A stretch of 64,000 bases of DNA. Origin: Caulobacterales bacterium (lineage in GTDB: Bacteria; Pseudomonadota; Alphaproteobacteria; Caulobacterales; Aquidulcibacteraceae). Position 1 is the stretch's first letter, and every line of letters starts with the position of its first letter. The notes under the pieces are model-generated. The model ran no database searches and was not told where the DNA came from. It worked only from the letters and a program-made list of their open reading frames with translations. Of this stretch, positions 6,572-37,700 are shown piece by piece. Both the position numbers and the translations under genes were made by a program. The stretch lies in NCBI GenBank assembly GCA_017303355.1, contig JAFLCU010000002.1:57501-121500 (forward strand). Reading direction: 5' to 3'.

Positions 6572-6635
6572 ACCCAACACAGCGCCGAACGTTTCAACCG
6601 CTCTTGCAGCCGCAAGCAGCGGCCAAACGTGCTGC

Positions 6636-6672: not shown

Positions 6673-6710
6673 CCAAGATCAACGGCCAAGCGCCTCGGGC
6701 GCAATCCTTC

Positions 6711-10131: not shown

Positions 10132-10204
10132 TTGCGGCGCGGGCCTTCGGTTCAAACTGGCGCTTCGATAGGCGCCGGGCCGGGCGAAATCAACTGAACG
10201 CGCC

Positions 10205-11371: not shown

Positions 11372-11579
11372 CGCCGGCTCCCTTTCGCCCCGACGAACGC
11401 ATGTCACGGCCAGGGCGCCGGCCGCAATGGCTGACCATTCCGTAGCCAATCTTTCAGCATGTTCACTGCTTCCGCTGCCTTAGCGCTTGGCGCCGAGCGT
11501 TATTTAAGCTTTGTTACCCCTAAGGCGCGTATTGAGGGCAATCCCTGAGGGATCGCGCGCCTATGCGTGGGAGCTCACA

Positions 11580-21658: not shown

Positions 21659-22543
21659 ATGCCTGAGCCCGAAATCTATCGTTTCTCGCCGATTTCCCGC
21701 CTGCTGCGGAGCGCGCCCTCGCGCATCGATCTCGCCCGGAAATCAGTGGAATTGCGCGAGGCGCTGCAGGCCGCGTTCGACGCCTCGGGCGCGGACGTGC
21801 TCTCGCTCGACGTGTTCGACACGCTGCTATTGCGCGACAATCAATCCGAAGCGCGGCGCTTTTGGGAACTCTCCAAGCTGATCCGCAAGGAACTCATCGA
21901 TTCAAAAGCGCACCCGCGCGCCGCCGCTCTGAGCGTGGAGGATTTCCTGCTGGCGCGGGTCGAGGGAATGCGTGTGAGCTATCGCACGCGCAAGCCTGTG
22001 AAGACGTGCTGCGAAGGCGTGCTCGACGATGTGACTAAGATCGCGCGCCGCGCTCTTGGTCTGTCGGCAAGCGTCGACAAGCATTTCATCGCCACCGAGA
22101 TCGTTTACGAAGCCAGCGTTCTCGCCATCAACGACGCCGTGCTGGATTTGGCGCGCGCGGTGAAAGCCAAGGGCGGACGCGTGGTGCTTGTGAGCGACAT
22201 GTATCTGCGCGGCGAACACATTGGCGCGATCCTGGAAAAGGTCGATTCCGGCGCCGCGAAGATCGTCGACCACATCTTTTCCAGCGGCGATCTTGTGGTC
22301 AGCAAGCGCGCCGGCCGCATCTTTCGCGAAATCGAGCGCCGCTTGGAGCTTGGCCCAAGCGCGTTCTTTCATATCGGCGACTCGCTTCTGGGCGACGTCT
22401 CCAGGCCGCGGGAGGCCGGATGGTCGGCGCTGCATTTCCCGGTGTCCGACGCCGAAGCGCAAGCGCGCGAGGCCGATGTCGCGGCGTTTATCGATGAGAT
22501 GCACGCGTTGGGGCTCAACGTTTCCGATTGGGCGAAGGTGTGA
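21659..22543 (+). CDS. HAD-superfamily hydrolase-like protein of a glycan locus
   Basis: A 294-residue protein. The HAD nucleophile motif is LSLDVFDTLLLRD (Asp51), motif II is VVLVSDMYL, the lysine motif is LVVSKRAGRIF and motif III is FFHIGDSLLGDV, so all four catalytic motifs are intact. The long helical insert between motifs I and II (about 60-150) forms the cap. It resembles the N-terminal part of the large COG5610-like HAD proteins of capsule and O-antigen clusters. The ATG at 21659 is chosen; a TTG at 21629 is possible. Its stop overlaps the next start (TGATG), so the next gene, likely carrying the remainder of that architecture, is translationally coupled. Confidence 0.8.
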   Translation: MPEPEIYRFSPISRLLRSAPSRIDLARKSVELREALQAAFDASGADVLSLDVFDTLLLRDNQSEARRFWELSKLIRKELIDSKAHPRAAALSVEDFLLARVEGMRVSYRTRKPVKTCCEGVLDDVTKIARRALGLSASVDKHFIATEIVYEASVLAINDAVLDLARAVKAKGGRVVLVSDMYLRGEHIGAILEKVDSGAAKIVDHIFSSGDLVVSKRAGRIFREIERRLELGPSAFFHIGDSLLGDVSRPREAGWSALHFPVSDAEAQAREADVAAFIDEMHALGLNVSDWAKV

Positions 22544-25116
22544 TGCTGGACAAAACCCAAGCGACGGACGCGCCGTACGAATTCGGCTATCGCAAGCTCG
22601 GCCCTGTCGTCGCCGATTATTGCGCGCGACTGCTGGCGCATGCGCTATCTTTCGAGCGCGAGCAGGACGGCAAGGTGCTGTTCGTCGCTCGCGCCGGCGT
22701 GCGCATTCGCACAGCGCTTGAGGCGTTCGCGGCGACCGCTGAAATCGATTTGCCGACGCGCGCGGATTATCTTTGGGCCTCGCGACTGATGGTGGCGAAG
22801 GGCGTGTGGCGGCGCAGCCGCGCCCGCGCGCTTCAGGTGCTGGGCAAGGAATTCGCCTATGCGCCGCTGAAGGATTTCGTGGCGGCGATGTTTCGGCACG
22901 AAGGTTTGCCGCGCGATCTCGACCTGAACGATCCGGCGCTGGCGCAGCGCGCTTCCAATCTTGAAGCGTTTTTCGCGTCAGGAGGCCCCGCCGCGCGCGC
23001 GGTGGATCAGCATCTCGTCGAGCAATCGGAATTGTTCGACGCTTATATCGCGAAATTGCTCGGCGATCATGAGCTCGCGCTGCTGATCGACACCGGCTGG
23101 CAGGGCACCGCCCAATCCATGCTCGATGAGGCGTTTCCCGACGTGACCTGGTGGGGCGCGTATTTTGGACGTTTCTCGACCGACGCGACGGACAAGCGCG
23201 GCTGGTCGCGCATGATCGGCGTCGTCACCGAGCACGGGCAATTCGATCCCGCGTGGCCGGAAAGCTGTGTCGTATTGCATCGGCACATGATCGAGCACCT
23301 GTTTCAGCCGACTGGCCTCAGCATCGAGCGTCTCGCGCCCGGCGCCGATGGCGTAATCTCCTCGCCCGAGGCGGCGAGTGTGTTGCTGGACAAAGTCGAT
23401 CGCGAAAACTCGCCGATGTTCGCGGGCGTTCTGGACTATCTCGCGAAATTGCCGGATGGCGTGGGGCCAGCGGCGCTGCGGGCGCGGGCGCACACGGAAT
23501 GGCGCAACATCGCCCGCGCTGTCGTGCTGCCCAGCAAGGACGATGTCGAGGTCTTCGCCGACATCACGCGGTCGGCGGATTTCGGGCGTTCAATCGAGGT
23601 GCCGCTTCTGCTGCCCACGCGCAACCGCCATCGCGATGACAGCCCGGAGGCGCGCGTGCGCGACTCGCTCTGGCATGCTGGCCAACTCGCGCTTGAGTAC
23701 CCGCAAGAGATCGCGCAGCCCATGCAGCGCAAGATTGCCGGCATTGGCCGCGGCGATTTGAGCGAGAAGCAAAAGCCGGCGCGCAAGGCGGCGCGGGAAC
23801 AAGCCGGCGCCCGCCCCAAAGTGGCGATCATCACCCGCACCTTGGATCGGCAAATCTTCCTGAAGCGTGCGCTAGCCAGCGTCGCGTCGCAGACCTTCAC
23901 CGATTACGTGCATGTCGTCGTCAACGATGGCGGCGACAATGACGCGGCGCGCGAAACCATCGAGGCGGCTTCCGTCGATCTCGATCGGCTGCTTCTGGTC
24001 GATAACGTCGTCAATCGCGGCATGGAGGCGGCCTCCAATATCGCGATCAGCAGCTGCGATAGCGATTTCATCGTCATCCACGACGACGACGACACCTGGG
24101 AGCCGACGTTCCTTGAAAAGACCGTCTCATTTCTCGAAAGCTCGCGGGGGCGTCATTATGACGGCGTTATCACGCGCTCGACCTATGTATCGGAATCGGT
24201 GACGCCGACAGGCATCGTCACGCACGGCTCTGGCCCATACAATGGCTGGGTCGAAACCGTGCACTTGCACGAAATGGCGGTGCAGAATTTCTTCCCGCCG
24301 ATCGGATTTCTCTTCCGCCGCTCGCGCTATGACGCCATCGGCGGCTTTGACGAACGCTATCCGGTGCTCGGCGATTGGGATTTCAATCTCCGCTTCCTGA
24401 GCGAGTCCAACATCGCCGTCCTGCCGGAATCGCTGGCGAACTATCACCACCGCGACCGTGGCGACACCGCGATCTTCGGTAATTCCGTGATCGCCGACCG
24501 GCACAAACACCTCGAATACTCAGCCGTCGTCCGCAACAATCTCGTGCGCTATCTCTCCGAACGGGGACGCCAGGCTGAAGCCTCCATGATCGGGCTTGGC
24601 ATCTTGCTGGGTGAAGAGCGCGATCTGGGCCGGCGCACCGTGCAGAAGCTCGATGCGCTTGTCGGTGGCGGCGCAATGCCCGCCGCGCAACATGTCGGCG
24701 TCGTCCATCACGGTTCGCACAATGCCGACGCGATGTGGATCGCCACGCAACGTCTTGCGCAAATCATTGCGCGCGGGGATGTCGTGGCGCTGGCTGAAGT
24801 CGGGCTGGCGTCCGATCCGCGCGACATACGCCAGCGTGTGATGCGCATCCTCGCGCGCGTCGTTGGCCTTGCGCGCCCGATATTCGCTGCGACCGATGCC
24901 GATCTTTCGAAGACGCCGCAGGCGATCGCGAAACTCGTGGCGCTGCACCGCGATCCGTACCGTGCGATGCCGCCGCCGGCCGATTTCGATGAAATCCGCT
25001 ACCTGCGCGACAATCCGGACGTCGCCACCGCTATCACGCGCGGCGAGCTGACCTCCGGGTTCGAGCATTATTTCTACAACGGGCGCCAGGAAGGCCGCGC
25101 GCGACCATCGCGCTAG
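22543..25116 (+). CDS. Large fusion: COG5610-like region + GT2 + NPDV-repeat tail
   Basis: An 857-residue protein. Residues 1-415 resemble the C-terminal part of HAD-linked capsule proteins (COG5610-type): SFEREQDGKVLFVARAGVRI and LLIDTGWQGTAQSMLDEAFP, with no motif I. Residues about 421-645 form a GT2 domain: KVAIITRTLDRQIFLKRALA, VVVNDGGDNDAARE, FIVIHDDDDTWEPTF (metal-binding Asp cluster) and GGFDERYPVLGDWDFNLRFL. Residues 809-848 hold the motif DEIRYLRDNPDV...HYFYNGRQEGR, a repeat (YLxxNPDV, HYxxxGxxEGR) seen in alphaproteobacterial glycosyltransferases and secreted surface proteins. The start overlaps the HAD stop. The substrate is unknown. Confidence 0.8.
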   Translation: MLDKTQATDAPYEFGYRKLGPVVADYCARLLAHALSFEREQDGKVLFVARAGVRIRTALEAFAATAEIDLPTRADYLWASRLMVAKGVWRRSRARALQVLGKEFAYAPLKDFVAAMFRHEGLPRDLDLNDPALAQRASNLEAFFASGGPAARAVDQHLVEQSELFDAYIAKLLGDHELALLIDTGWQGTAQSMLDEAFPDVTWWGAYFGRFSTDATDKRGWSRMIGVVTEHGQFDPAWPESCVVLHRHMIEHLFQPTGLSIERLAPGADGVISSPEAASVLLDKVDRENSPMFAGVLDYLAKLPDGVGPAALRARAHTEWRNIARAVVLPSKDDVEVFADITRSADFGRSIEVPLLLPTRNRHRDDSPEARVRDSLWHAGQLALEYPQEIAQPMQRKIAGIGRGDLSEKQKPARKAAREQAGARPKVAIITRTLDRQIFLKRALASVASQTFTDYVHVVVNDGGDNDAARETIEAASVDLDRLLLVDNVVNRGMEAASNIAISSCDSDFIVIHDDDDTWEPTFLEKTVSFLESSRGRHYDGVITRSTYVSESVTPTGIVTHGSGPYNGWVETVHLHEMAVQNFFPPIGFLFRRSRYDAIGGFDERYPVLGDWDFNLRFLSESNIAVLPESLANYHHRDRGDTAIFGNSVIADRHKHLEYSAVVRNNLVRYLSERGRQAEASMIGLGILLGEERDLGRRTVQKLDALVGGGAMPAAQHVGVVHHGSHNADAMWIATQRLAQIIARGDVVALAEVGLASDPRDIRQRVMRILARVVGLARPIFAATDADLSKTPQAIAKLVALHRDPYRAMPPPADFDEIRYLRDNPDVATAITRGELTSGFEHYFYNGRQEGRARPSR

Positions 25117-25155
25117 GTCCTGCAATCGCCATTTAGTCAAACTATATGAGTGGGC

Positions 25156-26109
25156 ATGAAGCTCGACTGGCTCAATCCTCAGCTTACGCCCTCCAGCTTG
25201 AGCGAAGCGGGGCGCGAAGCGTTTGATGTCGGCGCCTTTTTCCCGTTCACGCTCAACGCCTATTCGATGGTGCATTACGCGCCTGTCATTGAGCGTATCC
25301 TCGCCGGCTTGAGCGTCCGGCGCATTGTCGAGGTCGGCGTCTTTCAGGGTGATCTCTCGGTTTACATCCTCGATTTGGCGCGCAAGGCGAACGCCGCTGC
25401 TGATTTCGTCGACATTGCGTTCAAGCCGGAGGTGCGCGCGCGCATCGCCCAGGCGGCGGGCGACACGCCTGTGTGTTTCCATGAATGCGCATCGGTCGAC
25501 GCATTGGGCGCCATCGATCCGATGGATTTCGTCTTCCTGGACGGCGATCACAATTACGAGACTGTCGAACAGGAATTGGCGCTTATCGCGGCGGCGGCGG
25601 GTAAGCGCATAGTCTTGATGCACGATGTCGGCTGGCCTTGGGGCAGGCGGGATGGCGCTTACGCACCGGCGCGTTTGGCGGATCCTGACGCCTACAAGGC
25701 CGGCGAGCTGACGCCCTTCTCGGATCGGATCGTCGAAGAGTTTGGCTTGCCGTTTCAACCGGTAAAGCTCAGGGAAGGCGGCCCCCGCAACGGCGTTCTA
25801 ACGGCCGCCGAGGATTTTCGCGCCGCGCGTGGTGCGCGCTGGCGCTATTGGTCCATCCCCCTGTTTTTCGGTCTCGGCGTGCTTTGGGATGGCGAAGCCG
25901 TCACGGTGGAGGAGGATATGCACCTCCTGGAGATCGGGCGTGCGATGCAAGCGGCGGCGCCGCTTATGGCCAGCGCCGAACTCAATCGCCTGATGATGCT
26001 GATCAAGCTGCAGAGTGCAGGCGTCATCTGGAAACGCCAGCGCGAACGCATTATCGAACTGGAATCGAGATTGGCCGCGAGCCAAGCGAAGGTGAACAAT
26101 GTCGTTTGA
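25156..26109 (+). CDS. Class I SAM methyltransferase (Methyltransf_24 type)
   Basis: A 317-residue protein. The SAM-binding motif IVEVGVFQGDLSVYILDLA (about residue 55) and VFLDGDHNYETVEQELALIA (about 125) are the two signatures of the Methyltransf_24 family, common in polysaccharide and cephalosporin-hydroxylase-like enzymes. LMHDVGWPWGRRDGAYAPAR supplies the catalytic His-Asp region. The C-terminus (about 250-317) is helical and coiled-coil-like, ending ERIIELESRLAASQAKVNNVV, as for proteins that dimerise or bind a partner. The next gene starts within its last 11 bases, so both are cotranslated. It probably methylates a sugar or glycan end; the acceptor is unknown. Confidence 0.82.
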   Translation: MKLDWLNPQLTPSSLSEAGREAFDVGAFFPFTLNAYSMVHYAPVIERILAGLSVRRIVEVGVFQGDLSVYILDLARKANAAADFVDIAFKPEVRARIAQAAGDTPVCFHECASVDALGAIDPMDFVFLDGDHNYETVEQELALIAAAAGKRIVLMHDVGWPWGRRDGAYAPARLADPDAYKAGELTPFSDRIVEEFGLPFQPVKLREGGPRNGVLTAAEDFRAARGARWRYWSIPLFFGLGVLWDGEAVTVEEDMHLLEIGRAMQAAAPLMASAELNRLMMLIKLQSAGVIWKRQRERIIELESRLAASQAKVNNVV

Positions 26110-26944
26110 GAAAAGCGCATACATTCTCGACCAAGAGAAGCGCGCCGCCGAGCACAATGCCTCGATGGCGAAGATGGAGGCGGCTGTACGCGCCACGCAG
26201 GCGCTGACGCCAGCTGAGCTTCCGCCCGAATGGATGATGAACACGATCGGCAGCCACGCCGCCGCGCATTTCAAGAACACCGCATGCTGGACGTTCACGG
26301 AGCTCGTACGCCGGGGCCGCCTCAGTAGCGCATCGCGCGTTGTCGATATCGGCAGCGGCTGCGGGCGCATGGCCTTGCCATTCTCGTATCTGATCGAGGA
26401 TGGCGAATATTACGGCACGGACGTTTTCCGCGAAGGCGTCGATTGGTGCACGCAGAACATTTCGCCCCGCAACCCGGCGTTCAAGTTCTGCTTCCAGGAC
26501 GTGGCGAAGAATTATTATTTCAAGGACGCAGCCGGCGAAGGCAACAAGATGGGTTTGCCGTTCGTCAAAGATAGTTCGATCGATTTTGTGTTCGCCATCT
26601 CGGTCTTTACGCACCTGATCGAGTACGACGCCGTGCAATATCTGCGCGAGATCGCCCGCGTGCTCGATAAGGACGGAATCGCCTATCTCACGACCTTCAA
26701 CATCGACCGCTTCTTCTTCGAGTACGTACGCAATACGGGCAAGCACGTTGCGGTGCGTGAGGTTTCGCCCGGCCATTATCAGGCGTATGCTGGTCAGGAT
26801 TTTTTTGGCGGCTACACGCCGGAGCGATGGCGTAAGCTCGTTGAAGATGCGGGCATGGAGATCATCGGCTATGATCCTGGCGCCTGGGCGAACAAGCCCG
26901 GGTCGTTGCATTTTCAGGACGTATCCCTGATCGCCAAGAAATAG
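26099..26944 (+). CDS. Class I SAM-dependent methyltransferase
   Basis: A 281-residue methyltransferase. VVDIGSGCGRMALPFSYLIE (about residue 81) is motif I. YYGTDVFREGVDWC supplies the acidic ribose-binding loop and SSIDFVFAISVFTHLIEYDA with LREIARVLDKDGIAYLTTFN gives motifs post-I to III of the Methyltransf_11/25 group. The N-terminus is helical (EKSAYILDQEKRAAEHNASM). The ATG overlaps the preceding gene by 11 bases. It looks like one of a pair of modifying enzymes for a surface glycan; O- or N-methylation cannot be told apart. Confidence 0.85.
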   Translation: MSFEKSAYILDQEKRAAEHNASMAKMEAAVRATQALTPAELPPEWMMNTIGSHAAAHFKNTACWTFTELVRRGRLSSASRVVDIGSGCGRMALPFSYLIEDGEYYGTDVFREGVDWCTQNISPRNPAFKFCFQDVAKNYYFKDAAGEGNKMGLPFVKDSSIDFVFAISVFTHLIEYDAVQYLREIARVLDKDGIAYLTTFNIDRFFFEYVRNTGKHVAVREVSPGHYQAYAGQDFFGGYTPERWRKLVEDAGMEIIGYDPGAWANKPGSLHFQDVSLIAKK

Positions 26945-26958
26945 GAAGTGACGGATCA

Positions 26959-27702
26959 TTGACGGAAGCCGCGTGGCAAACGCTGGCGGAATTGTTCGAA
27001 TTTCCGCCCGACCAGGCAGAGTATCTCATCAATTACTCGCCAAGATTCTCGTACGTCTTCGTCGAGAATCCCAAGGCCGGCTGCTCTACGATCAAGCGCA
27101 CGCTCCAATCCATGGAAGCCGAAGGTCGCGGCGTTCAATTGCCGGAGAACGTACACGACAAAGCCAATTCGCCGCTGCAATCGCCTGGGGAGGCCGAGCT
27201 TAGCGCCCGCGAGCTGTTGCGCGCGGCCGATCTGTTTCGCTTCTGTTATGTGCGCAACCCGTTTACGCGGGTGCTCTCGGCCTATCTCGACAAGATCGTC
27301 GAGAATGAATGGGAGCGTGATCGCCTGGCGCCGACGCTGGGTCTATCGCCGGAGCACATTTGCAGCCTCAAAGTGTTCTTGGAGGCTGTCGCGGAGCAGT
27401 CGAACTGGATGCGCGACATCCATTGGCGAACGCAGACAAGTCTGCTCCGGCCGGATGAAATCCCTTACGATTTTGTAGGACGCTTCGAATCGATCGGCGC
27501 AAGCCTGCGGCGCGTGGTGACGCGCGTCTCACCCACCGCATTTGGCGGCGAGAGCGAGCGCGTGGCGTTTCACGCCACAAACGCCGCCCGCAAAGTCGCG
27601 CACTTTATCGGCGCGGAGGAGGCTGCACTCGTTCGCGAGATTTTCGCCGATGACTTCCAGAATTTCGGATACTCGCACGACCCGCACTTCGCGACTGTTT
27701 AA
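26959..27702 (+). CDS. Sulfotransferase family 2 (PAPS-dependent), likely glycan sulfotransferase
   Basis: A 247-residue protein. YVFVENPKAGCSTIKRTLQ (about residue 31) is the 5'-phosphosulfate loop of Sulfotransfer_2 proteins and FRFCYVRNPFTRVLSAYLD (about 93) is the 3'-phosphate-binding motif with the conserved RNPFxRxLSAY. Both are strongly matched. Start is TTG at 26959, about ten bases after AGGAAG. The family transfers sulfate from PAPS to carbohydrate hydroxyls, so the local glycan is probably sulfated. It is 14 bases after the methyltransferase and converges with the large fusion gene, overlapping by four bases. Confidence 0.85.
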   Translation: MTEAAWQTLAELFEFPPDQAEYLINYSPRFSYVFVENPKAGCSTIKRTLQSMEAEGRGVQLPENVHDKANSPLQSPGEAELSARELLRAADLFRFCYVRNPFTRVLSAYLDKIVENEWERDRLAPTLGLSPEHICSLKVFLEAVAEQSNWMRDIHWRTQTSLLRPDEIPYDFVGRFESIGASLRRVVTRVSPTAFGGESERVAFHATNAARKVAHFIGAEEAALVREIFADDFQNFGYSHDPHFATV

Positions 27703-30700
27703 GCCCGTCCATCCATGGCGGCGGAGATTTCCCCGGTGCTGAAGCGCGCGCGCAAGCCGAACTGCTCAATCAATGTCTCAAGATAGGCGCACGCGCGCGG
27801 TGCGATATCGTCCGATGGCGCAAACTCGCGTGCGACATAAGCCTGCATGCGCGCAATCTCCGCCAATTCGGCGAGCCCGAAGCGGGATATGGTGACGCTC
27901 GCGTCGTGGCGGCGGTGATTGTTCAACGCGGTCGGCGTGAAGGCGAGGGCGCCGTGCCGCAGTGCGTTGACGTAAACGCACCAATCGCCAGCGACACGGT
28001 AGCCGCTAATCTCGGTCTCGTGAGAGCGTAGCGCGTTCAGCAAGGCCGCGCGGCGAAACACGACGGCGCTGGCGTTGGGAATTGTGTTCTTGATCGATAA
28101 GCCGTCGCGGACCTCCGTAGGCCCGTCACCGACAAACGCGCGTTTCCATTTGTGCGCGGCGACGTCATGCACATAGTCGAGATAGTCCGGCGCAAGGAGG
28201 TGCCCGTCGCTGCTCACCTGCCGCGATTGCGTCATTGAGAGAACGACGTCACGCCGCTGAAAAGCGGTGGTTGTTGCTTCAAGGAAGTGCGGATCGGCCC
28301 AATCGTCGGCCTCCGCGATCCAGATGACATCGCCTTGCGCCATCTCCGCGCCTCTGCGCCACTGGGCGAAGACGCTGCCGGAATTTTTGGCATTGCGGAC
28401 GATCCGCCAATTGATCGGCGCGCGCGCAAGCACGCGCTCGGCCACGGCGACGCTGTCATCCGTGGAGGCGTCGTCGAGAAATATGATCTCGCGCGGCGCC
28501 AGCGTTTGCGCGAGGATGCTCTCCAGGCGCTGTTCGAGATGATGCGCGTAATTGTAATTTGGCACGACGACGGAAACGCGCGGCGTCTGGACGTTCAGCA
28601 GATCAAGCAAGCCGCCAGCGTAAGTGGAGAAGCCGAACCGCTCGTGCATCAGCGCGCTGCCGGCGGCGCCGGCGGCGGCGATCTGTGTGGCGTCATCCAG
28701 CCACGCCTCGGCCGCCGTCATGAACGTCGCCGCCTCGGCGTCCGCGATCGCCTGGACACAGCCGTGCTCGGAGAGAGACTCGATGCCGCCCGTGCCGCGC
28801 ACCATGATCACCGGCGTGCGCGCCGCGAGCGCTTCGAGTGCGGTCGAAGGAAACGGGTCCTCGCGGGAGGTGAGGGCGTAAATATCCGCGGCCGCGAAAT
28901 AGTCCGATGTGTCTTCCGCAAAGCCGGGAAAATGCAAATTCTCGCCGCGCTGATGCTCGAGATCGGGTGACCGTTTGCCGACCCATACAAAGTGCAAATC
29001 CGGCCATTGTCGGGCGGCCGCCTTCGCCCACGCCGCGAAAATATCGACGCCCTTGCGGGCATCGCCATAGCCAACGCCCAGCGCAATGCGTGCATCCGCG
29101 GGCAAGCGCAACCGTTTTACAAGGCGCGTGCGCGCCTCTCTCTTGGCGTCGTCGTCGCGCAGAACGCCTGCTTTGTATAATCCCTGCGGCAGTACATGCG
29201 CATTGCGCCAAGCCGCGATTTGCAGCGCCTCGCGCACGCGATCGCGCACCGCATCGGCGGGAAATACCAATGTTTCGCATAGCTGATCCATCGCGCGCAG
29301 GTCGTCGTGCAAATGCATATCGGCCAGAATCTGCGGCATCTCGTGCACGAGACCGATCATGCGCACGTTGAGTTGTGCGAGTACTGGCGCGAGCCAGCCG
29401 GACGCCGCGCTGTTGACGATCGCATGGCGAAAGCCGCGTTCTGTCAGCGCGCCAAGCGCTGTCTCCACGCTGGCATCCGAAGCCTCGCGGTCCAAAATGG
29501 TAAGCGGGCCCTCGCGTTCAAAATCGGCCGCCAATGCGCCAGGGCCGCCGCCGCTCACACACGCCACTTCAAAGCCAAATTGCCGTTTCAGCGTACGCGC
29601 CAGATTGAGCGCGATGTATTGCGCGCCGTGCTTATGCAGATCATGCGTGACGATGATGATCTTGCGTTGCGCATCGGCGTCGAGCGCCTGGCGTGTTGCT
29701 TCGAGCCACGCATAGCCATGACGTGCATCAGGCTCGAGATAGGCGCCCTCGGCCCATTCGTTCCAGGCGTTGATAAAAACGAGCCGTTCATCCGGTGTCG
29801 TCGCTTGCTGCGCCGTCGCTTGCACGGCCTCCGATAGCCATGCCTTGTACGCCGAAGGCGCTGTGTTCACGAAAACGGCGCCGACATTTGGCCGGCGCGG
29901 GGTGTTATCCCATTGCGGCGTCACGCCGCGAAACAATCGGTATTTCGGCGTCGCGCGCTTGCGCGTGCGCGAGGGTAGGCGCCGCCAATCATAGATCATC
30001 AGATCCGCGCCATCGGCCATGTCAGCGACGAGCTTTGGCTCGGGGCGTAGGCCGAGATTGTTCGGTGGAAATTCCACTGCGGCGTCGAAGCCGTAATGCT
30101 TGGGATCGTCTTTTTCGAACGATTGCGTGTACGCGAGATAGATTTCGCCAATACCGTTCGTGCGCAGCCAGGTGCGCCAGCGGTCCGCCGTTTCGCGCGC
30201 GTTGGGCAGCAGCGCGGGGCGATACACTAGCAAGAGCGGCCGCCCGTCGATGCGGATATAGTTCGGGTTTGCGAAATATTGGCTCACATGGGCGATGAAC
30301 GCGACGTCGTCTTCGGCTGAGTGCGCCTGCGCGATCAGAATTTCACGATCCTTGCCGTCCCAGCGACGCGTCCAGTTCTCGTTGGCCCAGCACAGGCAGA
30401 ACGGAAAACCGATGCTGCTGTTCTGGTGGAAATTCTGGATCGGCGTCTCAAGCAGGCGTTTGCCGGCGAACCAGTAGAAGTAAAAACAGAAGCCGCTGAC
30501 GCCATGCAGCTTCGCCAGCTCCGCTTGGCGGTGCATCACATCGGGATCAGCGGCCAGATCGTAATACCCCAGTTCGCCCGGCATGCGCGGCTGATCGTGG
30601 CTGGCGAAGCGCGGTTGCGCCGCGCGCACTTTTGTCCATTCGGTGAAGCCTTCGCCCCACCACGCGTCATTCTCCGGGATCGGGTGAAACTGCGGCAGAT

Positions 30701-30992
30701 AAAAAGCGATGGCGCGCGCGATCGTCTCGCGCGGCGGCGCGGTGGCGACCAGCGGCACGTACCCATCGAGGCTCGCGTCGATCGCGGGCGCGGCCAGGTC
30801 ATCGACGATGTCGTGCTCGGCTTGCCAGCGTTTGAACACATCGCTCCAGCCGAACAATTTCGGCGCCGTGGCGAACAATCGCGCCGCCAGCCGCCCGCGC
30901 TGCTGCGGACTGAGCGGCAGAGCCCGCCAAGCCGCGCGCGCGAGGCCTGTGAAGGCGCGTTTGGCGCTCTCCTGAAAGGTCACTCGTTGCAT
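27699..30992 (-). CDS. Giant glycan enzyme: GH99-like (WbsX) + GT4 + GT2 fusion
   Basis: A 1097-residue, three-domain protein. About 95-435 is a GH99-like (WbsX) domain: AIAFYLPQFHPIPENDAWWG, EGFTEWTKVRAAQPRF, GFCFYFYWFAGKRLLE and FINAWNEWAEGAYLEPD. About 445-795 is a GT4-like domain with IIIVTHDLHKHGAQYIALNL, ALGVGYGDARKGVDIFAAWA and the E-x7-E region REDPFPSTALEALAA. About 804-1000 is GT2: VSVVVPNYNYAHHLEQRLES, FLDDASTDDS, IWIAEADDWADPHF (DxD). The ATG at 30992 is used; TTG at 30998 is possible. It is a likely multi-step polysaccharide synthase or remodelling protein. The next gene on the right is the ABC exporter on the other strand. Confidence 0.85.
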   Translation of the reverse strand: MQRVTFQESAKRAFTGLARAAWRALPLSPQQRGRLAARLFATAPKLFGWSDVFKRWQAEHDIVDDLAAPAIDASLDGYVPLVATAPPRETIARAIAFYLPQFHPIPENDAWWGEGFTEWTKVRAAQPRFASHDQPRMPGELGYYDLAADPDVMHRQAELAKLHGVSGFCFYFYWFAGKRLLETPIQNFHQNSSIGFPFCLCWANENWTRRWDGKDREILIAQAHSAEDDVAFIAHVSQYFANPNYIRIDGRPLLLVYRPALLPNARETADRWRTWLRTNGIGEIYLAYTQSFEKDDPKHYGFDAAVEFPPNNLGLRPEPKLVADMADGADLMIYDWRRLPSRTRKRATPKYRLFRGVTPQWDNTPRRPNVGAVFVNTAPSAYKAWLSEAVQATAQQATTPDERLVFINAWNEWAEGAYLEPDARHGYAWLEATRQALDADAQRKIIIVTHDLHKHGAQYIALNLARTLKRQFGFEVACVSGGGPGALAADFEREGPLTILDREASDASVETALGALTERGFRHAIVNSAASGWLAPVLAQLNVRMIGLVHEMPQILADMHLHDDLRAMDQLCETLVFPADAVRDRVREALQIAAWRNAHVLPQGLYKAGVLRDDDAKREARTRLVKRLRLPADARIALGVGYGDARKGVDIFAAWAKAAARQWPDLHFVWVGKRSPDLEHQRGENLHFPGFAEDTSDYFAAADIYALTSREDPFPSTALEALAARTPVIMVRGTGGIESLSEHGCVQAIADAEAATFMTAAEAWLDDATQIAAAGAAGSALMHERFGFSTYAGGLLDLLNVQTPRVSVVVPNYNYAHHLEQRLESILAQTLAPREIIFLDDASTDDSVAVAERVLARAPINWRIVRNAKNSGSVFAQWRRGAEMAQGDVIWIAEADDWADPHFLEATTTAFQRRDVVLSMTQSRQVSSDGHLLAPDYLDYVHDVAAHKWKRAFVGDGPTEVRDGLSIKNTIPNASAVVFRRAALLNALRSHETEISGYRVAGDWCVYVNALRHGALAFTPTALNNHRRHDASVTISRFGLAELAEIARMQAYVAREFAPSDDIAPRACAYLETLIEQFGLRARFSTGEISAAMDGRA

Positions 30993-31175
30993 CGGCAAAC
31001 TGGGTGGCTGCTCCGGGCGGTTCGAGACAGGGCATAGCCTGACCGGCGTTTTCTATTCAACGCGCGGCGCTGAAAATGCCGGTCGCGCCCGGTGTGAGCG
31101 CGGCGCTCGACCAAGGCGGGCAAAAGAGACTATTTAGAGCCGCACGCGCCGCGCGCGGGCGCTTGGGGGCTTTGC

Positions 31176-31955
31176 ATGCTGTCCGCCATCGGAGATCTGG
31201 GCAATGGCGTGCTCCAGTGGCGCACCAGCTACAAGCTGGGCGTCCAGGACATCGACCTGCGCTATCGCCGCTCGGTTTTGGGGCCGTTTTGGATCAGCGC
31301 GTCGCTGGTGGCGACCGTGCTGGCGCTGGCGTTCGTGTTTGGCGAGGTGTTCCGTCAGGACTTTGTCGATTACGTCATCTTCCTGGGCGCGGGCCTCTTG
31401 GCGTGGCAACTCATCCTGGCGCTGGTCAATGAGGGCTGCGGCTCTATCGCCGAGCATTCCGCCTTCCTGCAAAATTTGCGCATGCCGCTCAGTGTGATCG
31501 CGGGGCGGATCGTGTTTCGCAACGCCATCGTGTTTGTGCACAATCTGATCGCCATCGTCGGCGTGTTCTTTCTGTTCGGCGCGCACCTGACCTGGACGGC
31601 ACTCTGGGTGTTTCCGGCGGCGCTGATGATCTTGGCGATCGGCTATTTCCTGATCCTAGTGCTCGGGCCGATCTGCGCGCGGTTTCGCGACATCCCGCTC
31701 GTCGTGCAAAGCGCCATGCAAGTGATCTTCTTCATGACGCCGATCTTCTGGCAGCCGAGCGCGATGGCGCACCGCCCGATGCTGACGCTGGCGAACCCCA
31801 TCTATCATTGGATCGAGCTGGTGCGCGCGCCGTTGCTCGGCCACGAAGCGACATGGCTGAACTGGCAGGTCGCGTTCTGGTCCTGCGGCGTGGCGTGCCT
31901 GTTGGCGATCATCACGCTGAGCGTGACGCGCAAGCGTCTCAGCCTGTGGCTTTGA
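31176..31955 (+). CDS. ABC-2 polysaccharide exporter permease (Wzm type)
   Basis: A 259-residue membrane protein with six predicted spans. The N-terminal cytoplasmic segment YKLGVQDIDLRYRRSVLGPF is the conserved pre-membrane motif of RfbA/KpsM/Wzm permeases, and IFFMTPIFWQPSAM near residue 190 is the equally conserved re-entrant region. It pairs with the ATP-binding protein starting 10 bases downstream to move lipid-linked polysaccharide across the inner membrane. Like O-antigen Wzm it has no extra domains. It begins in a gap of about 180 bases from the start of the GH99-like fusion. Confidence 0.92.
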   Translation: MLSAIGDLGNGVLQWRTSYKLGVQDIDLRYRRSVLGPFWISASLVATVLALAFVFGEVFRQDFVDYVIFLGAGLLAWQLILALVNEGCGSIAEHSAFLQNLRMPLSVIAGRIVFRNAIVFVHNLIAIVGVFFLFGAHLTWTALWVFPAALMILAIGYFLILVLGPICARFRDIPLVVQSAMQVIFFMTPIFWQPSAMAHRPMLTLANPIYHWIELVRAPLLGHEATWLNWQVAFWSCGVACLLAIITLSVTRKRLSLWL

Positions 31956-31965
31956 GGGGCGAGCG

Positions 31966-32748
31966 ATGGCGTCTGTTCGTCTCAAGGATGTGAGCTTCTG
32001 GTATCCGGTGTACGATGTCACCGGTCGCTCACTAAAGATTTCTCTGATGCGCCAGTTCGGGCGCAATGCCGAGAAGCAATCAGGCTTCGTCGAGGTTCAG
32101 GCGCTCTCCGGCGTGTCGCTTGAATTGAAGGAGGGCGATCGCATCGGCCTGATCGGGCGCAATGGCGCGGGCAAATCCACGCTGCTGAAGATGTTGGCCG
32201 GCCTCATCCACGCACAGCAGGGCGAGGTGAAAATCCAGGGCCGCGTCGTGCCTTTGATTTCACGTGGCCTCGGCATCCATCCCGAACTCAGTGGTTTCCA
32301 GAACATCGATGTGCCGATGCGCCTGCTTGGCGCCACGGAGGCCGAGATCCGCCGCGCCAAGCAAGACGTGCCGGAATGGTCCGGGCTCGGCGATTTCATC
32401 CATCTGCCGGTGCGTACCTATTCGGACGGCATGCGCGCGCGCCTGCTGTTCGCGATCTGCACGGCGGTGCGCGGCGATATTCTCGTGATGGATGAGTGGC
32501 TGAGCGCGGGCGACGCCGAGTTCGTCAACAAGGCGCAGGCGCGCCTCAATGAGGTGCTGAACGAAGCCCGCATCGTCGTGCTCGCCAGCCACTCGATCGA
32601 GATCATCCGCAAGATGTGCAATCTCGTCTGCTGGATCGAGCGCGGGCAGGTGGTGATGGTCGGCGCGCCGGATATCGTTCTGCCGGCCTACCTCAAGGGC
32701 GCTGAGCAGCCCCTTGAGGTCGCCGACACACGTGTGGTTTCGACCTGA
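31966..32748 (+). CDS. ABC polysaccharide exporter ATPase (Wzt type)
   Basis: A 260-residue ATPase. Walker A GRNGAGKST (about residue 62), the unusual signature TYSDGMRARL in place of LSGGQ as in KpsT/Wzt/TagH proteins, Walker B ILVMDEWLSAGD and the switch LASHSIEIIRKM are all present. The N-terminal WYPVYDVTGRSLKISLMRQF is also typical. It lacks the C-terminal carbohydrate-binding domain that long Wzt proteins use to recognise a terminal modification, so chain-length control may differ. It is coupled to the permease and converges with the RTX protease gene. Confidence 0.92.
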   Translation: MASVRLKDVSFWYPVYDVTGRSLKISLMRQFGRNAEKQSGFVEVQALSGVSLELKEGDRIGLIGRNGAGKSTLLKMLAGLIHAQQGEVKIQGRVVPLISRGLGIHPELSGFQNIDVPMRLLGATEAEIRRAKQDVPEWSGLGDFIHLPVRTYSDGMRARLLFAICTAVRGDILVMDEWLSAGDAEFVNKAQARLNEVLNEARIVVLASHSIEIIRKMCNLVCWIERGQVVMVGAPDIVLPAYLKGAEQPLEVADTRVVST

Positions 32749-32759
32749 ACGACGCCAGC

Positions 32760-35700
32760 TTACGAGCCCGGGATAATGAAATCCGAGTTCGCCAGCGAAA
32801 GGCCGGTCAAGAGCTGCGCGAACTGCACGGCAGCGCCCGCGCCGTCGCCGTCCGCATCGAAGAACAACGCGCCCGTCGTGCTGTTGTAGATGATGCGATG
32901 CGCGGCGTCCGAAGCCGCCGTGCCGACCACGAACGCCGCCGCCGAGAGTGTGCCCGCAGCCAAGCCGAACGCGGCGCTATCGAGCCAGATGCTGTCATCG
33001 ACGACCGAGAAATCGCTGATCGTGTCGATGTCTGCGCCTGGGGTGGAGACGAAGATGAACGCATCGACGCCCGCGCCGCCGTTCAGCGTGTCGGCGCCGT
33101 CGCCGCCGGTCAGCTGGTCGTCGCCATTGCCGCCATTCAGGATGTCGGCGCCGCCGCGGCCAAACAATTGATCCGCGCCGCCTTGGCCGTGCAGCGTGTT
33201 GGCCGAGGCATTGCCATAGAGGAAATCGGCGTGGCCCGAGCCCGACAGGTTCTCGATGCTGATGAGCGTGTCGCCCGCCGCATCGCCGCCGGAATAGACG
33301 CCGCTTTGCAGATCGACGCTGACCGCCGCGACGGAAGCGCCATAGGCCGCCGTATCGCTGCCATCGCCGCCATCGATCACGTCGCCGCCCGCGCCACCAT
33401 CGAGCCAATCGTTTTGATTGCCGCCGTAAATGGTGTCGGCGCCTTCGCGGCCCTGGATAAAGTCCGCGCCGTTTTGGCCAAACAAAGTGTTGGCGTTAGC
33501 GTTACCGAACAATTGGTCCGCGTGGCCCGAGCCCGAAAGATTCTCGATGCTGATCAGCGTATCGCCAGTCGCGTCGCCGCCGGAGAAGGCGCCACTCTGC
33601 AGATCGACGCTGACCGCGGCGAGCGATGCGCCGAACGCGGCTGTATCCACGCCGTCGCCGCCATCGATGACGTCAGCGCCCGTGCCGCCATCGAGCCAAT
33701 CGTTCTGATTGCCGCCATAGATGGTGTCAGCGCCGTCGCGGCCCTGAATGAAGTCCGCGCCGGCTTGGCCCCATAGCGTGTTCGCCGCGCTATTGCCGAA
33801 CAATTGATCGGCATGGCCCGAGCCGGAAAGGTTCTCGATGCTGACGAACGTGTCGCCGGCGGCGTCGCCGCCCGACGCCGCGCCGCTTTGCAGATCGACG
33901 TTCACTGCGGCGATCGACGCGCCGAACGCGGCTGTATCGGTGCCCGCGCCGCCATCGATGAGGTCGCCGCCGGCGCCGCCGTCGAGCCAGTCATTCTGGT
34001 TGCCGCCATAGACGCTGTCCGCGCCGCCGCGGCCTTGGATGAAGTCCGCGCCGTTTTGGCCGAACAAGGCGTTCGCGTTGCCGTCGCCGAAAATGTTGTC
34101 GGCATGGGCGGAACCTGAAACGCCTTCGATGTTTGTCAGCGTGTCGCCCGCGGCGTCGCCGCCAGAGAAGGTTCCGGCCTGCAGATCGAGAATGACCGCG
34201 CTCGTCGATGCGCCGAAAGCGGCGACGTCCACGCCGTTGCCGCCGTCGATCGTGTCACCACCGGCGCCGCCGTCGAGCCAATCATTGTCATCGCCGCCAT
34301 TGATCGTGTCGGCGCCTGCATTGCCCTGAATGAAATCAGCCCCGGCGAGGCCCGAAAGCGTGTTGTTGCCGGAATTGCCGATCAGCGTGTTGGCTGACGC
34401 GTTGCCGGTCCCGTCATTGTTGCCGGAACCGATGAGCGTCAGGTTTTCTACGTTCGCCCCGAGCGTAAACGTCACGCTCGATTGGACGATGTCGACGCCC
34501 TCGTTGCTAAGTTCGATGGCGGAATCGCTTACATTATCGACGATATAAGTATCATCGCCCGCGCCGCCGCGCATGGTGTCATTGGCCGCGCCGCCGTCGA
34601 GACGGTTGGCGGCGCCATTCCCGTAAATTGTGTCCGAACCAGTGCCGCCGATCGCGTTCTCGATCGTCACGCCGCGCGCGATTGAAATATTGAAAGTCGC
34701 GGGGAACGCGATGTTGCCGCCCGGCCCTGCTGTACTGAAGGATTCCTCACGCAGGTCGATCGTGCTGTTGGTGGAATAGCCCGACAGATCGAGTGTGTCG
34801 TTGCCGCCGCCGTCCCACACGGCAAACAGCGCGCCCTGAGTAGCAAGCGTAAGTGAGTATTGTGGCACGCCAGTGTTGGAGTTGAATCCATAAATGGTGT
34901 CGTCAGTGCGTGTCGCGAGGTTGGCGCCATACAAGCGCTGAATGGCGGCGATATCGTACATTTGAGCCAACGAAGCATAGCCCGGAACATTGCCGCCGGT
35001 GTTCGTGCTGCCGAAATAGCTCATGACCGTGAACATGCGCGTGTCGCCATAATAGTCGACACTGTCTGGATAGGTCGGATCGCCGTCTCCAGCGTTGTAG
35101 TCGCCGGGGTGGCTCAAGCCGAGGGCGTGGCCAATCTCGTGCAGCAAGACTTGCTGACCATATTCGCCGATCACTGGGTTGGCGTTGTAGCTCAGGGAAT
35201 TGTTTACCCAAACATCGCCTTGAACGCTGTTGCTTGCCGTGTTTCCGGTCGTTGGCAGATAGGCGAATGCCGCCGCCGCATCTTCACCCGTGCTGTAATT
35301 GCCAAAAAGGACCGAGGCGTTGTCCGAATAGCCTGTGCCGCCAACCCGGACGAAAGTGATGTTCGCCACCGCAGCCCATGCCGCGAGCGCGGCTTCGGTC
35401 GCCGCGATTTGCGCGGCGCTGAACGTGGAGAACCCACTTACGTCGCCCGGCATGCCCGCCGATGTCGCGCGAAAGGCGTAGGTGACTACCGTTGAAACGC
35501 CGAAGGACGAAGCCCAGCTCGCGCCCGAGCGCGTAATCTGGATGGCGGTCTCCTCCCATGAGTAATAGGGCAGGCCATTGTCGGTGAAGGTGGTCGGAGA
35601 GGTGCTGCCGGTATCGATCGCATCCGTCGCGAGCGTGTAGCCGCCGGTGGAGCCGATATCATAGCCGCGCGCGACGACGTAATAATCGCCGGTCGTTGTC

Positions 35701-36203
35701 GCTGTGAACATCAAGAACGAATTGTAGGTGATGCCGCCGTCATCATCCTCGGCGATCAACGTACCTGCGGAATTGCGTAGCTCGACATAAGCGTCGGCAA
35801 GCCCGCCGGCCGTCGCCGCCACTGAGAACGTGTAGGTCTGGCCGGCCACCAGCGAGACGCGCACATAGTCCAGGTCGCCGCCATGATTGATCGAGGTGGT
35901 GATGGATTGGCCGATCGTCAGTGACGTCGTAGTGCTGGTGTTGTCGCCAATGTCGTCGCCCAGGAATTGCGGGCCGCCAGTATCGCCATCGAGCAGCGGC
36001 GACACCTGCGCCTCGCCCCAAAGCGGCTTCTTCGCGTCCGTCAGCGCGCAGGCGAGGCAGCCGCAAGCGCTGGCGGCGCCTTCCTCGATTGTATAGGCGG
36101 CCGTCGCCGCAAATGTGCGGGTGAAGGAGATCGCATCGAGCGGCTCGCCGCCGCCGGAGGACCAAAGCTCGCCGCCCCACTGACGCGCCAAAACAGTCCG
36201 CAT
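32760..36203 (-). CDS. Serralysin-like M10 metalloprotease with RTX repeats
   Basis: A 1147-residue secreted zinc protease. Residues 80-195 look like a PPC (pre-peptidase C-terminal) domain. The catalytic zinc motif QVLLHEIGHALGLSHP has His355, Glu356, His359 and His365; the Met-turn Met is at 394 (FTVMSYF). A peptidase M10 C-terminal part and about 500 residues of Ca-binding nonapeptides (GGxGxDxUx: GGAGDDTYIVDN, GNGDDQLTGGDGADTL) follow. About four near-identical 97-residue units (291 bp) lie within them. There is no Sec signal. The ATG at 36203 is preceded by GGAG, seven bases upstream. The neighbouring type I system at 38244-42580 probably exports it. Confidence 0.93.
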   Translation of the reverse strand: MRTVLARQWGGELWSSGGGEPLDAISFTRTFAATAAYTIEEGAASACGCLACALTDAKKPLWGEAQVSPLLDGDTGGPQFLGDDIGDNTSTTTSLTIGQSITTSINHGGDLDYVRVSLVAGQTYTFSVAATAGGLADAYVELRNSAGTLIAEDDDGGITYNSFLMFTATTTGDYYVVARGYDIGSTGGYTLATDAIDTGSTSPTTFTDNGLPYYSWEETAIQITRSGASWASSFGVSTVVTYAFRATSAGMPGDVSGFSTFSAAQIAATEAALAAWAAVANITFVRVGGTGYSDNASVLFGNYSTGEDAAAAFAYLPTTGNTASNSVQGDVWVNNSLSYNANPVIGEYGQQVLLHEIGHALGLSHPGDYNAGDGDPTYPDSVDYYGDTRMFTVMSYFGSTNTGGNVPGYASLAQMYDIAAIQRLYGANLATRTDDTIYGFNSNTGVPQYSLTLATQGALFAVWDGGGNDTLDLSGYSTNSTIDLREESFSTAGPGGNIAFPATFNISIARGVTIENAIGGTGSDTIYGNGAANRLDGGAANDTMRGGAGDDTYIVDNVSDSAIELSNEGVDIVQSSVTFTLGANVENLTLIGSGNNDGTGNASANTLIGNSGNNTLSGLAGADFIQGNAGADTINGGDDNDWLDGGAGGDTIDGGNGVDVAAFGASTSAVILDLQAGTFSGGDAAGDTLTNIEGVSGSAHADNIFGDGNANALFGQNGADFIQGRGGADSVYGGNQNDWLDGGAGGDLIDGGAGTDTAAFGASIAAVNVDLQSGAASGGDAAGDTFVSIENLSGSGHADQLFGNSAANTLWGQAGADFIQGRDGADTIYGGNQNDWLDGGTGADVIDGGDGVDTAAFGASLAAVSVDLQSGAFSGGDATGDTLISIENLSGSGHADQLFGNANANTLFGQNGADFIQGREGADTIYGGNQNDWLDGGAGGDVIDGGDGSDTAAYGASVAAVSVDLQSGVYSGGDAAGDTLISIENLSGSGHADFLYGNASANTLHGQGGADQLFGRGGADILNGGNGDDQLTGGDGADTLNGGAGVDAFIFVSTPGADIDTISDFSVVDDSIWLDSAAFGLAAGTLSAAAFVVGTAASDAAHRIIYNSTTGALFFDADGDGAGAAVQFAQLLTGLSLANSDFIIPGS
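33160..34330. repeat. Tandem 291-bp units inside the RTX gene
   Basis: The minus-strand coding sequence repeats in units of about 291 bp (97 residues), four copies with the leftmost degenerate. The segment coding ADFIQGRxGADTIYGGNQND recurs near 33400-33460, 33690-33750, 33980-34040 and 34270-34330. Adjacent units differ by a few substitutions, mainly at synonymous and Ala/Gly/Ser positions, so the block can contract or expand by recombination. Confidence 0.75.
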
Positions 36204-36620
36204 GCGATTTCTCCGCTACCCAGAATTCCGAATGTATCCCGCCCTTTGGTAGCAAGGGGGCCGCTCTTGGCAAGGCCCGCGATTGAAGGCGCGAAAAGGC
36301 GAGCGAGCCGGACCTGGGATTGGGCAAGCTCTTGCGCGACACCCGCCCAGCTTGGTGCGTTCGACCTCGAAGGAGGGGCTTTGGCGGCGCCGGGCGCGGA
36401 TGTCGCCTCCACTCAAGTAGGCGCCGTCCATGCGCGCTTAAACGCGCCGCCATCGGGAACCCGGTGTCACCAATCTGTGACGTTTTTGTAAGTGTGGCCA
36501 AGGGGTTACGCGCTGCCCTCATATCGAGCAATGCGCCTCATGAAGCGGTGCGCGCGGTTGTCAGAACCGCCCCGGCTTGTTAACCCGACCTTAGAGGCAA
36601 GCAGGGGGAATGTGCGGGTG
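36204..36620. other. 417-base divergent gap, regulatory
   Basis: Separates the RTX protease and CapD-like genes, which read away from each other. No convincing gene is present. Near the right end is a CtrA-like site (36580-36594) and between 36470 and 36510 an AT-richer patch with GACGTTTTTG. An in-frame extension of the right gene to a TTG at 36492 exists but has no family similarity. Confidence 0.5.
36580..36594 (+). promoter_or_regulatory. Candidate CtrA-type box TTAA-N7-TTAG
   Basis: TTAACCCGACCTTAG matches the CtrA consensus TTAA-N7-TTAA in seven of eight fixed bases, 27 bases before the ATG of the CapD-like gene. CtrA controls polar development genes in Caulobacterales. A random match cannot be excluded. 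Confidence 0.35.
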
Positions 36621-37700
36621 ATGAGATCGTTCCCGCTTTCGCGTAAAGAGGTCGAGTTTGACCTCGCCACCTTGCGCGCCTTCTATGCCGGCAAGCGTGT
36701 CCTGATCACCGGCGCGGCGGGGAGCGTGGGCTCCGCATTGGCGCACCGTTTGGCCGAGCTGGGCTGCGCCCATATCGCCATGCTCGATCAGTTCGATCAC
36801 GGTTTGATTGAGGTGGTGGAAGGCGTTCGCCGCCTCGCGCCGTCCGCGCAAGTAACTGAAGCGCTGTGCGATATTCGCGATCAAGCGCGCCTGGGCGTTT
36901 GGATGCGCCGCGTGGCGCCTGACGTCGTGATCCATTCGGCGGCGCTGAAGCACGTGCATCTGGGTGAGCGCCACCCTATCGAATGCGTGATCACCAATCT
37001 CATCGGCGTGCGCAATGTCGTGGAGGCCGCGGCCGCCGCCGGCGCGTCGCATTTCATGCTGGTGTCGACCGACAAGGCCGCCGCGCCCGTCTGCGTGATG
37101 GGCGCGACCAAGCGCTTGGCCGAACTCTACCTGATGGGGTTCGCACAAGAGAACGATACGCCGATGCAGCTGAAATCGGTGCGCTTCGGCAATGTGTGGG
37201 GCAGCCAGGGCTCTGTCCTGCCGCGCTTCGCCGCGCAGATCGAAGCGGGCGGCCCAGTCGAGATCACACACACCGATATGAAGCGCTTCTTCATGACCGA
37301 CCGGGAGGCCGTGGGCTTGATCCTGAGCGTCGCCGCGCTTGATCAGCCGGACGCCGAAGGCGCCTTTTTCATGGAAATGGGCGATCAGAAATCCATCGTC
37401 GACATCGCCAAGGATATGATCGCGCGCTCTGGCCACAAGGACATCGAAATCAAGATCACGGGCTTGCGTCCCGGCGAAAAGCTCGGCGAGCAATTGTTCG
37501 ACGACAACGAGGTCGTGAGTTCAAGCGCGCTTCCGGGCATTTTTCGCGTCGCGCCGCACTCGGTGGATGCGTATCTCAATTCAGCCGATGTCGCGCACAT
37601 CGAAACCATGGCGCGCACGCTGGACGACGCCGTCGTACGCCAGCGCATTTTCGCGCAGCTCGATGAGCGTCTGCACCGCGAAGATTTGGCTGCCAGCTGA
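36621..37700 (+). CDS. Polysaccharide biosynthesis dehydratase/epimerase (CapD/FlaA1-like)
   Basis: A 359-residue SDR protein of the Polysacc_synt_2 family. VLITGAAGSVGSALAHRLAE (about residue 26) binds NAD. STDKAAAPVCVMGATKRLAE (about 155) is the family's active-site block, with Asp-Lys and the MGATKR lysine. SVRFGNVWGSQGSVLPRF follows. It matches short UDP-GlcNAc 4,6-dehydratase or 5-inverting forms (FlaA1, WbpM C-terminal half, CapD) and lacks the N-terminal membrane helices of WbpM. The product would be a UDP-4-keto-6-deoxy hexosamine. Start chosen at the ATG after AGGGGG; GTG at 36618 is possible. It is divergent from the protease gene. Confidence 0.85.
   Translation: MRSFPLSRKEVEFDLATLRAFYAGKRVLITGAAGSVGSALAHRLAELGCAHIAMLDQFDHGLIEVVEGVRRLAPSAQVTEALCDIRDQARLGVWMRRVAPDVVIHSAALKHVHLGERHPIECVITNLIGVRNVVEAAAAAGASHFMLVSTDKAAAPVCVMGATKRLAELYLMGFAQENDTPMQLKSVRFGNVWGSQGSVLPRFAAQIEAGGPVEITHTDMKRFFMTDREAVGLILSVAALDQPDAEGAFFMEMGDQKSIVDIAKDMIARSGHKDIEIKITGLRPGEKLGEQLFDDNEVVSSSALPGIFRVAPHSVDAYLNSADVAHIETMARTLDDAVVRQRIFAQLDERLHREDLAAS

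Follow-up and report, generated by a model that had tools for sequence, protein, structure and literature searches.

What would the fold of a glycosidase, with its catalytic residues intact, be doing in an enzyme encoded among genes for polysaccharide synthesis and export? The question is raised by a minus-strand gene in a 64,000-nucleotide stretch of contig JAFLCU010000002.1 from a Caulobacterales bacterium (hereafter the window, meaning the whole of this stretch). The gene encodes a protein in which a WbsX domain with the fold of glycoside hydrolase (GH) family 99 is followed by two glycosyltransferase (GT) modules, of families GT4 and GT2. The original prediction had placed a glycosidase-like domain and two types of GT in one chain of about 1100 residues at 27699-30992; Pfam bears out this composition, and the ATG at 30992 gives that extent. 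We favour, with a probability of about 45%, the reading that the protein assembles O-polysaccharide in the cytoplasm and that its GH99-fold module acts in synthesis, by transfer. The gene is laid out as follows:

27699-30992, minus strand: WbsX-GT4-GT2 protein, 1097 amino acids from the ATG at 30992
30795-30992, minus strand: N-terminal helical stretch, linker-like, residues 1-66 (alignment and AlphaFold2 model)
29694-30710, minus strand: WbsX domain, GH99 fold, residues 95-433 (PF14307, AlphaFold2 and VIA-align)
29748-29759, minus strand: codons of E412-W-A-E415, aligned equivalent of BxGH99 E333/E336 (alignment to 4ad1, 5lyr and 4v28)
28608-29657, minus strand: GT4 module of GT-B type, residues ~446-795 (PF00534/PF13692 and Foldseek)
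27813-28586, minus strand: GT2 module of GT-A type, residues ~803-1060 (PF00535, phmmer and Foldseek)

The open reading frame (ORF) runs uninterrupted over 27699-30998 with a TTG start at 30998. The Pfam family Glyco_tran_WbsX (PF14307) matches residues 95-433 over positions 2-350 of its 350-position model (E 2.3e-131, 438.8 bits against a curated cut-off of 25.1 bits). The group-1 glycosyltransferase signal (PF00534/PF13692) covers residues 624-767 at E 6e-17 to 4e-15, over cut-off, and Glycos_transf_2 (PF00535) covers residues 807-927 (E 2.9e-24, 86.3 bits), while an NCBIfam scan returned general glycosyltransferase matches only, far under their cut-offs. A full-length AlphaFold2 model built from 51 sequences has a mean predicted local distance difference test score (pLDDT) of 89.5. 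Given the Pfam matches, this model and the Foldseek matches described below, all three modules are real. A helical stretch similar to that of residues 1-66 precedes WbsX in relatives too, and the source genome contains a single WbsX domain. A chance ORF was ruled out by profile E-values down to 1e-131, as was a fusion created by assembly, the same core being found in many independent genomes. We conclude that the protein is real and intact, and probably functional.

Modelled alone (AlphaFold2, 74 sequences), the WbsX domain reaches a pLDDT of 94.7, and the best PDB matches of this model in Foldseek are human MANEA, BtGH99 and BxGH99, at E ~1e-13; the structure prediction that had been proposed as a check of the GH99-like domain thus came out in its favour. 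In VIA-align the GH99 group scores Z 22.5-26.2, against 19-20 for GH71 and at most 14.5 for the other listed entries. At the sequence level, the WbsX family profile finds OpGH99A (5ngw) at 1.1e-5 and BxGH99 at 0.002 among PDB sequences. The domain therefore shares with the GH99 endo-alpha-mannosidases and mannanases (BxGH99, BtGH99, MANEA) both the fold and the ExxE catalytic pair described below. It differs from them by an identity of only ~14-18%, by its biosynthetic context, by the lack of an export signal and by the lack of any match to Pfam Glyco_hydro_99 (PF16317) up to E 10, PF14307 alone being reported. Because PF16317 does not match, we call the domain GH99-like, as judged by modelled fold and motif, and not GH99, and the protein is classed among the WbsX proteins. 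Searching 198 genomes with PF16317 gave mostly weak matches, and the motif pattern sought was absent from every frame examined.

In the family profile alignment, INAWNEWAEGAYLEP lies opposite ITSFNEWHEGSQIEP, and the NEWAEG of the window is aligned with the NEWHEG of the Bacteroides GH99 enzymes 4ad1, 5lyr and 4v28. The last of these is an E333Q variant, and its Q falls at the position of the first glutamate; by this alignment, therefore, E412 and E415 correspond to E333 and E336 of BxGH99, which act mechanistically as its catalytic pair. Each of the 94 aligned sequences retains both glutamates (the count excludes L057, a short match). This set was biased at the motif, as 80 loci had been fetched by means of six peptide patterns, of which three fell within WbsX and one spanned NEW. 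Because of that selection, we made a motif-blind count, in which family-profile matches were drawn evenly from two phyla, with 16 matches above 400 bits in each and the window counted in the first. Here too, both glutamates were present in 32/32 strong matches, so that the acidic residues said to be retained in the GH99 region are indeed there, and the loss of the catalytic glutamates, named beforehand as what would speak against the claim, is not observed. Weaker matches (<60 bits) vary at the first glutamate, with D in an NDF/NDY group and G in L137. In the other phylum, the distant WbsX/GH99-like proteins of L156-L162 and L167-L169 read N-D-F/Y-G-E-G for N-E-W-x-E-G, Asp replacing the first catalytic Glu. 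Among the three parts of the fusion, WbsX has the highest mean pairwise identity over 51 rows (52%, with 36% for GT4 and 43% for GT2), in rows that were partly chosen by WbsX patterns.

These counts bear on a binding-only role, in which the WbsX domain would be a non-catalytic scaffold that keeps the glycan in place for GT4 and GT2 as it grows. The GH99 fold can lose catalysis, since the GH99-related PDB protein 5ngw lacks the catalytic pair (its aligned stretch reads NNWNIG). However, both glutamates are kept in all of the 94 and all of the 32 sequences across phyla while E205, in another conserved motif, is G or H in 3/32 of the motif-blind strong matches, and we regard a scaffold as decidedly improbable. 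A catalytically dead GH99 domain was ruled out, as both glutamates are kept.

The two transferase modules were compared in an alignment of 51 proteins, made up of the window protein and 50 homologues with the fusion. For GT4, Foldseek returned the GT-B enzymes HepE, PimB', MshA and BshA, the first three at E 6e-16 to 5e-14. Residues R646, K647, D650, S709, R710 and D712 are invariant; the motif region reads D712-x7-E720, and E711 and E720 are each kept in at least 90% of the rows. The GT2 module was matched to 3bcv and chondroitin polymerase (2z86) by phmmer and to the GT-A enzyme SpsA by Foldseek, with D840, D841, D845, E894, D896, D897 and D1003 invariant. The "clear DxD" expected in this module is there as an invariant acidic motif, though it reads E894-A-D896-D897 (ExDD) and not a literal DxD; we take it to be the DxD-type metal motif, and D1003 presumably to be the candidate catalytic Asp.

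The place and partners of the protein point to assembly. The genes around it include the following:

15040-16029, minus strand: GT2 glycosyltransferase (PF00535)
16144-17181, plus strand: RmlB-like dehydratase (PF16363)
17103-17732, plus strand: RmlC (PF00908)
17721-18584, minus strand: RmlD (PF04321)
19480-20355, minus strand: RmlA-like nucleotidyltransferase (PF00483)
22528-25116, plus strand: GT2-containing protein, 862 amino acids (PF00535)
25150-26109, plus strand: methyltransferase (Methyltransf_24, Pfam)
26099-26944, plus strand: methyltransferase (Methyltransf_11, Pfam)
26959-27702, plus strand: sulfotransferase (Sulfotransfer_2, PF03567, E 4.5e-20)
31176-31955, plus strand: Wzm-like polysaccharide ATP-binding cassette (ABC) permease (PF01061; best NCBIfam match galactan Wzm, 194 bits, cut-off 380)
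31966-32748, plus strand: Wzt-like ATPase, 260 amino acids (PF00005; best NCBIfam match galactan Wzt, 221 bits, cut-off 400)

Both NCBIfam matches of the transporter fall under cut-off, and at 260 amino acids the Wzt-like ATPase is too short to have room for a C-terminal glycan-binding domain. The sulfotransferase gene is convergent with the WbsX-GT4-GT2 gene, the stops overlapping by 4 bases; in L003, a genome of the same genus, this neighbour is kept at 65% identity and the Methyltransf_11 neighbour at 74%. The WbsX-GT4-GT2 protein itself has no hydrophobic segment resembling a membrane span (maximum 19-residue mean 1.17) and no export signal by sequence. A secreted catabolic hydrolase was ruled out by this lack of a hydrophobic segment together with the biosynthetic neighbours. 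The complete gene set for dTDP-rhamnose (RmlA, RmlB, RmlC and RmlD) lies within 15 kb, so that the precursor pathway encoded nearby is that of dTDP-L-rhamnose. The GDP-mannose and UDP-sugar donors originally suggested for assay have no specific support here.

From these observations we infer a cytoplasmic site and a role in export-linked assembly. The protein would combine several modules to assemble a surface polysaccharide for the adjacent Wzm/Wzt to export; this polymer is probably an O-antigen. GT4 and GT2 would add sugars from nucleotide donors onto a lipid-linked chain. The WbsX module would be a catalytically competent GH99-fold enzyme that forms, instead of breaking, one linkage. GH99 chemistry proceeds via the 2-OH of the sugar and requires a 1,2-trans sugar. 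By such chemistry, WbsX would transfer a 1,2-trans sugar, of which alpha-L-rhamnose and alpha-manno sugars are examples; E412 would activate the 2-OH, and E415 would serve as acid/base. As a conjecture, alpha-L-rhamnose would fit the 1,2-trans requirement, all its precursor genes being nearby; transfer over hydrolysis and any part played by the sulfotransferase are conjectured as well.

The alternative that competes most directly, our main rival, is editing by hydrolysis, in which WbsX would be a true endo-glycosidase beside polymerising modules, setting chain length by trimming, or clearing away misassembled lipid-linked chains before they are exported. A retaining endo-glycosidase fold with both catalytic glutamates intact is what such an enzyme would have, and cyclic glucan synthase offers a known example of length control by a degradative module, its phosphorylase domain, in one chain with a GT (PMC10901819). 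However, cytoplasmic cutting of the cell's own product would need tight control, and editing hardly explains why several diverged stand-alone WbsX genes occur in one biosynthetic locus. The capsule/O-antigen loci L171 and L172 hold three (5571-6689, 9252-10358, 10262-11440) and two (5473-6552, 8796-9911) such genes respectively, their products mutually 36-74% identical. Diverged copies of this kind are expected of linkage-specific synthases and lean towards a synthetic WbsX. So does the start of the domain only 4-17 residues from the N-terminus in several stand-alone proteins, which therefore have no room for a signal peptide. A further lean in this direction comes from Burkholderia gladioli, for which one report describes resistance to a lipopolysaccharide-binding phage in two wbsX mutants, one nonsense and one frameshift, as well as in a wzt mutant; the membrane defects of the wbsX mutants are milder than those of the wzt mutant, and one of their two mutations falls in a GT domain (PMC13391952). 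This resistance seems equally compatible with transfer and editing and does not separate them. Taken together, the lack of an export signal, the biosynthetic and export cluster and the multiple stand-alone copies per locus suit a synthetic role better than cleavage, and we hold editing to be rather unlikely. L172 also holds Wzy_C, a GHMP kinase and a nucleotidyltransferase; the last two would suit an activated manno-heptose.

Retaining GH folds are capable of transglycosylation, so WbsX could also move an oligosaccharide or repeat block between lipid-linked chains, or close or branch a chain, without using a nucleotide sugar. A precedent for a GH fold inside a synthase exists in the GH144-like CY domain of cyclic glucan synthase, which is needed for function and for synthesis (PMC10901819); it is the precedent for the synthetic reading that we favour as well. 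Cyclic beta-1,2-glucan synthase (Cgs/ChvB) is likewise a synthase that combines a GT with a GH-fold domain, and it requires the latter; it differs in being a membrane protein with GT84, GH144-like and phosphorylase modules, other folds and another product. A transglycosylase of this type is, in our estimate, improbable, as it has neither acceptor nor donor evidence and as stand-alone copies occur in many locus types.

The fusion is less exceptional than "unusual", as it had been called. The WbsX-GT4-GT2 core is found in 59/93 other WbsX frames (55 plain and four with an extra GT module), these frames having been retrieved with the whole protein as similarity query and the window's own two copies excluded. 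In the motif-blind draw, in which loci end 1.5 kb from the match, all three domains occur in 5/32 frames, including the window and the search-centre genome. WbsX matches were obtained in 18/299 genomes sampled in the window's phylum and 21/198 in another phylum, and record titles place members in Proteobacteria, Planctomycetota, Nitrospirota, Firmicutes, an archaeal metagenome-assembled genome and others. In proteins of Xanthomonas, Stenotrophomonas and related genera (L077, L080, L082-L090, L092, L094-L096, L101), WbsX is followed by ~200-250 C-terminal residues that match neither the GT4 nor the GT2 profiles.

At least 300 residues precede WbsX in 48 frames. Pfam recognizes Sulfotransfer_3 in 12 of these extensions, Sulfotransfer_2 in two, Methyltransf_11 in four and GT2 in five, and a profile grown from two extensions finds a sulfotransferase-like domain in 19/48. 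By a home-made heuristic, coiled-coil-like stretches are present in 28/48 extensions, against 0/48 remainders and 3/48 shuffled extensions; in 14 of the 19 sulfotransferase-like cases such a stretch lies between that domain and WbsX. A short SWRxTxP motif is found in 17/48 extensions and in none of the remainders. Within the window's order or genus, L004, L005, L006 and L007 have WbsX-GT4-GT2 frames of ~1550-1610 residues with coiled coil and SWRxTxP before WbsX; all of these but L005 showed the sulfotransferase-like domain. The order predicted in many relatives, a sulfotransferase or methyltransferase, a coiled coil and then WbsX-GT4-GT2, is new here, and targeted literature searches found no paper on such terminator-ruler forms of WbsX proteins.

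This order recalls the polymerase-terminators of Klebsiella pneumoniae O7 (ORF6) and O12 (WbbB), in which a coiled-coil ruler carries the terminating enzyme at its distal end and the polymerising GT modules are C-terminal; WbdA has one GT module per linkage type (PMC11231755). Since the same core follows a terminator-like domain and a coiled coil in relatives, the WbsX-GT4-GT2 family looks like the polymerase half of such proteins. Like them, the window protein has several catalytic modules per chain, two or more of them polymerising (GT4 and GT2), with predicted ABC export of the product by the adjacent Wzm/Wzt. The O7 and O12 proteins differ in that, as described, they have GT modules only and no GH99-fold module, and terminators unlike the sulfotransferase or methyltransferase of the relatives. 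A wider generalization is that WbsX domains are glycosyltransferases or transglycosylases on a glycosidase fold, making alpha-linkages inside the cell via a GH99-style 1,2-anhydro-sugar step, and that full-length relatives are one-chain machines with a sulfotransferase or methyltransferase cap beyond a coiled-coil ruler, where GH99-fold, GT4 and GT2 modules polymerise. We consider it doubtful. Sulfation as a chain-ending signal would, to our knowledge, be new.

Several points weigh against a synthetic, polymerase-like role for the window protein. Literature searches turned up no report of a WbsX domain assayed as an enzyme, a hydrolase would need the intact GH99 dyad just as much, and no donor site was identified in the WbsX domain. 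We know of no precedent for the GH99 fold as a nucleotide-sugar transferase. The usual GT4 motif is EX7E, and the module carries D712 where that motif normally has E. The window protein has no coiled-coil-like segment by the same heuristic, unlike the extensions of 28/48 relatives, nor do the 10 other cluster proteins checked. It also lacks, by Pfam, a terminating enzyme on the same chain, the sulfotransferase being encoded by a separate neighbouring gene, and thus has neither the terminator nor the coiled coil of O7 ORF6 and O12 WbbB. WbsX also occurs in Wzy-type loci, such as L172 with its Wzy_C gene and Plesiomonas shigelloides O37, so that ABC export is not its only setting; searching the fetched loci with window queries at 1e-30 gave Wzt-like genes in 22/80 and Wzm-like genes in 6/80. 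In the O37 report, the GT list assigns orf10 to both Wzy and a GT.

Genes named wbsX are reported from the O-antigen loci of P. shigelloides O66 and O37 and of B. gladioli. The window member shares the PF14307 "Glycosyltransferase WbsX" domain with such proteins and differs by its fusion to GT4 and GT2; so far as we found, the name glycosyltransferase rests on prediction. WbsX domains are thus widespread and named glycosyltransferases, yet they resemble a glycosidase with an intact catalytic pair, and knowing their role would fill a recurring gap in gene-based prediction of O-antigen structures. If the favoured reading is true, a glycosidase fold works as a synthase, and the relatives with terminator, coiled coil and WbsX-GT4-GT2 offer a directly testable format. 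What is noteworthy is the intact glycosidase active site inside a synthase, on which (GH99-like, in an O-antigen synthase) targeted searches found no paper, together with the terminator-ruler forms of relatives, and not the fusion itself.

Other genes of the window lie further from this subject. A UDP-N-acetylglucosamine 4,6-dehydratase-like gene (PseB/FnlA; 36492-37700, plus strand) and a PseC-like aminotransferase gene (42682-43812, minus strand), both under their model cut-offs, suggest that an aminodeoxy sugar may also be made at the locus. The minus strand at 32760-36203 encodes an RTX-repeat serralysin-type metalloprotease resembling the SapA model (418 bits, cut-off 1200), near a complete type I secretion system, also on the minus strand (TolC, HlyD and PrtD-type ABC; 38244-39536, 39540-40790 and 40787-42580). 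This mixture of metalloprotease and type I secretion with O-antigen genes is, we assume, reminiscent of the Caulobacter S-layer region. Finally, a protein encoded at 53420-54865 (minus strand) has a TIR domain followed by Sel1 repeats, is weakly similar to a Thoeris model and is possibly a defence or signalling protein.

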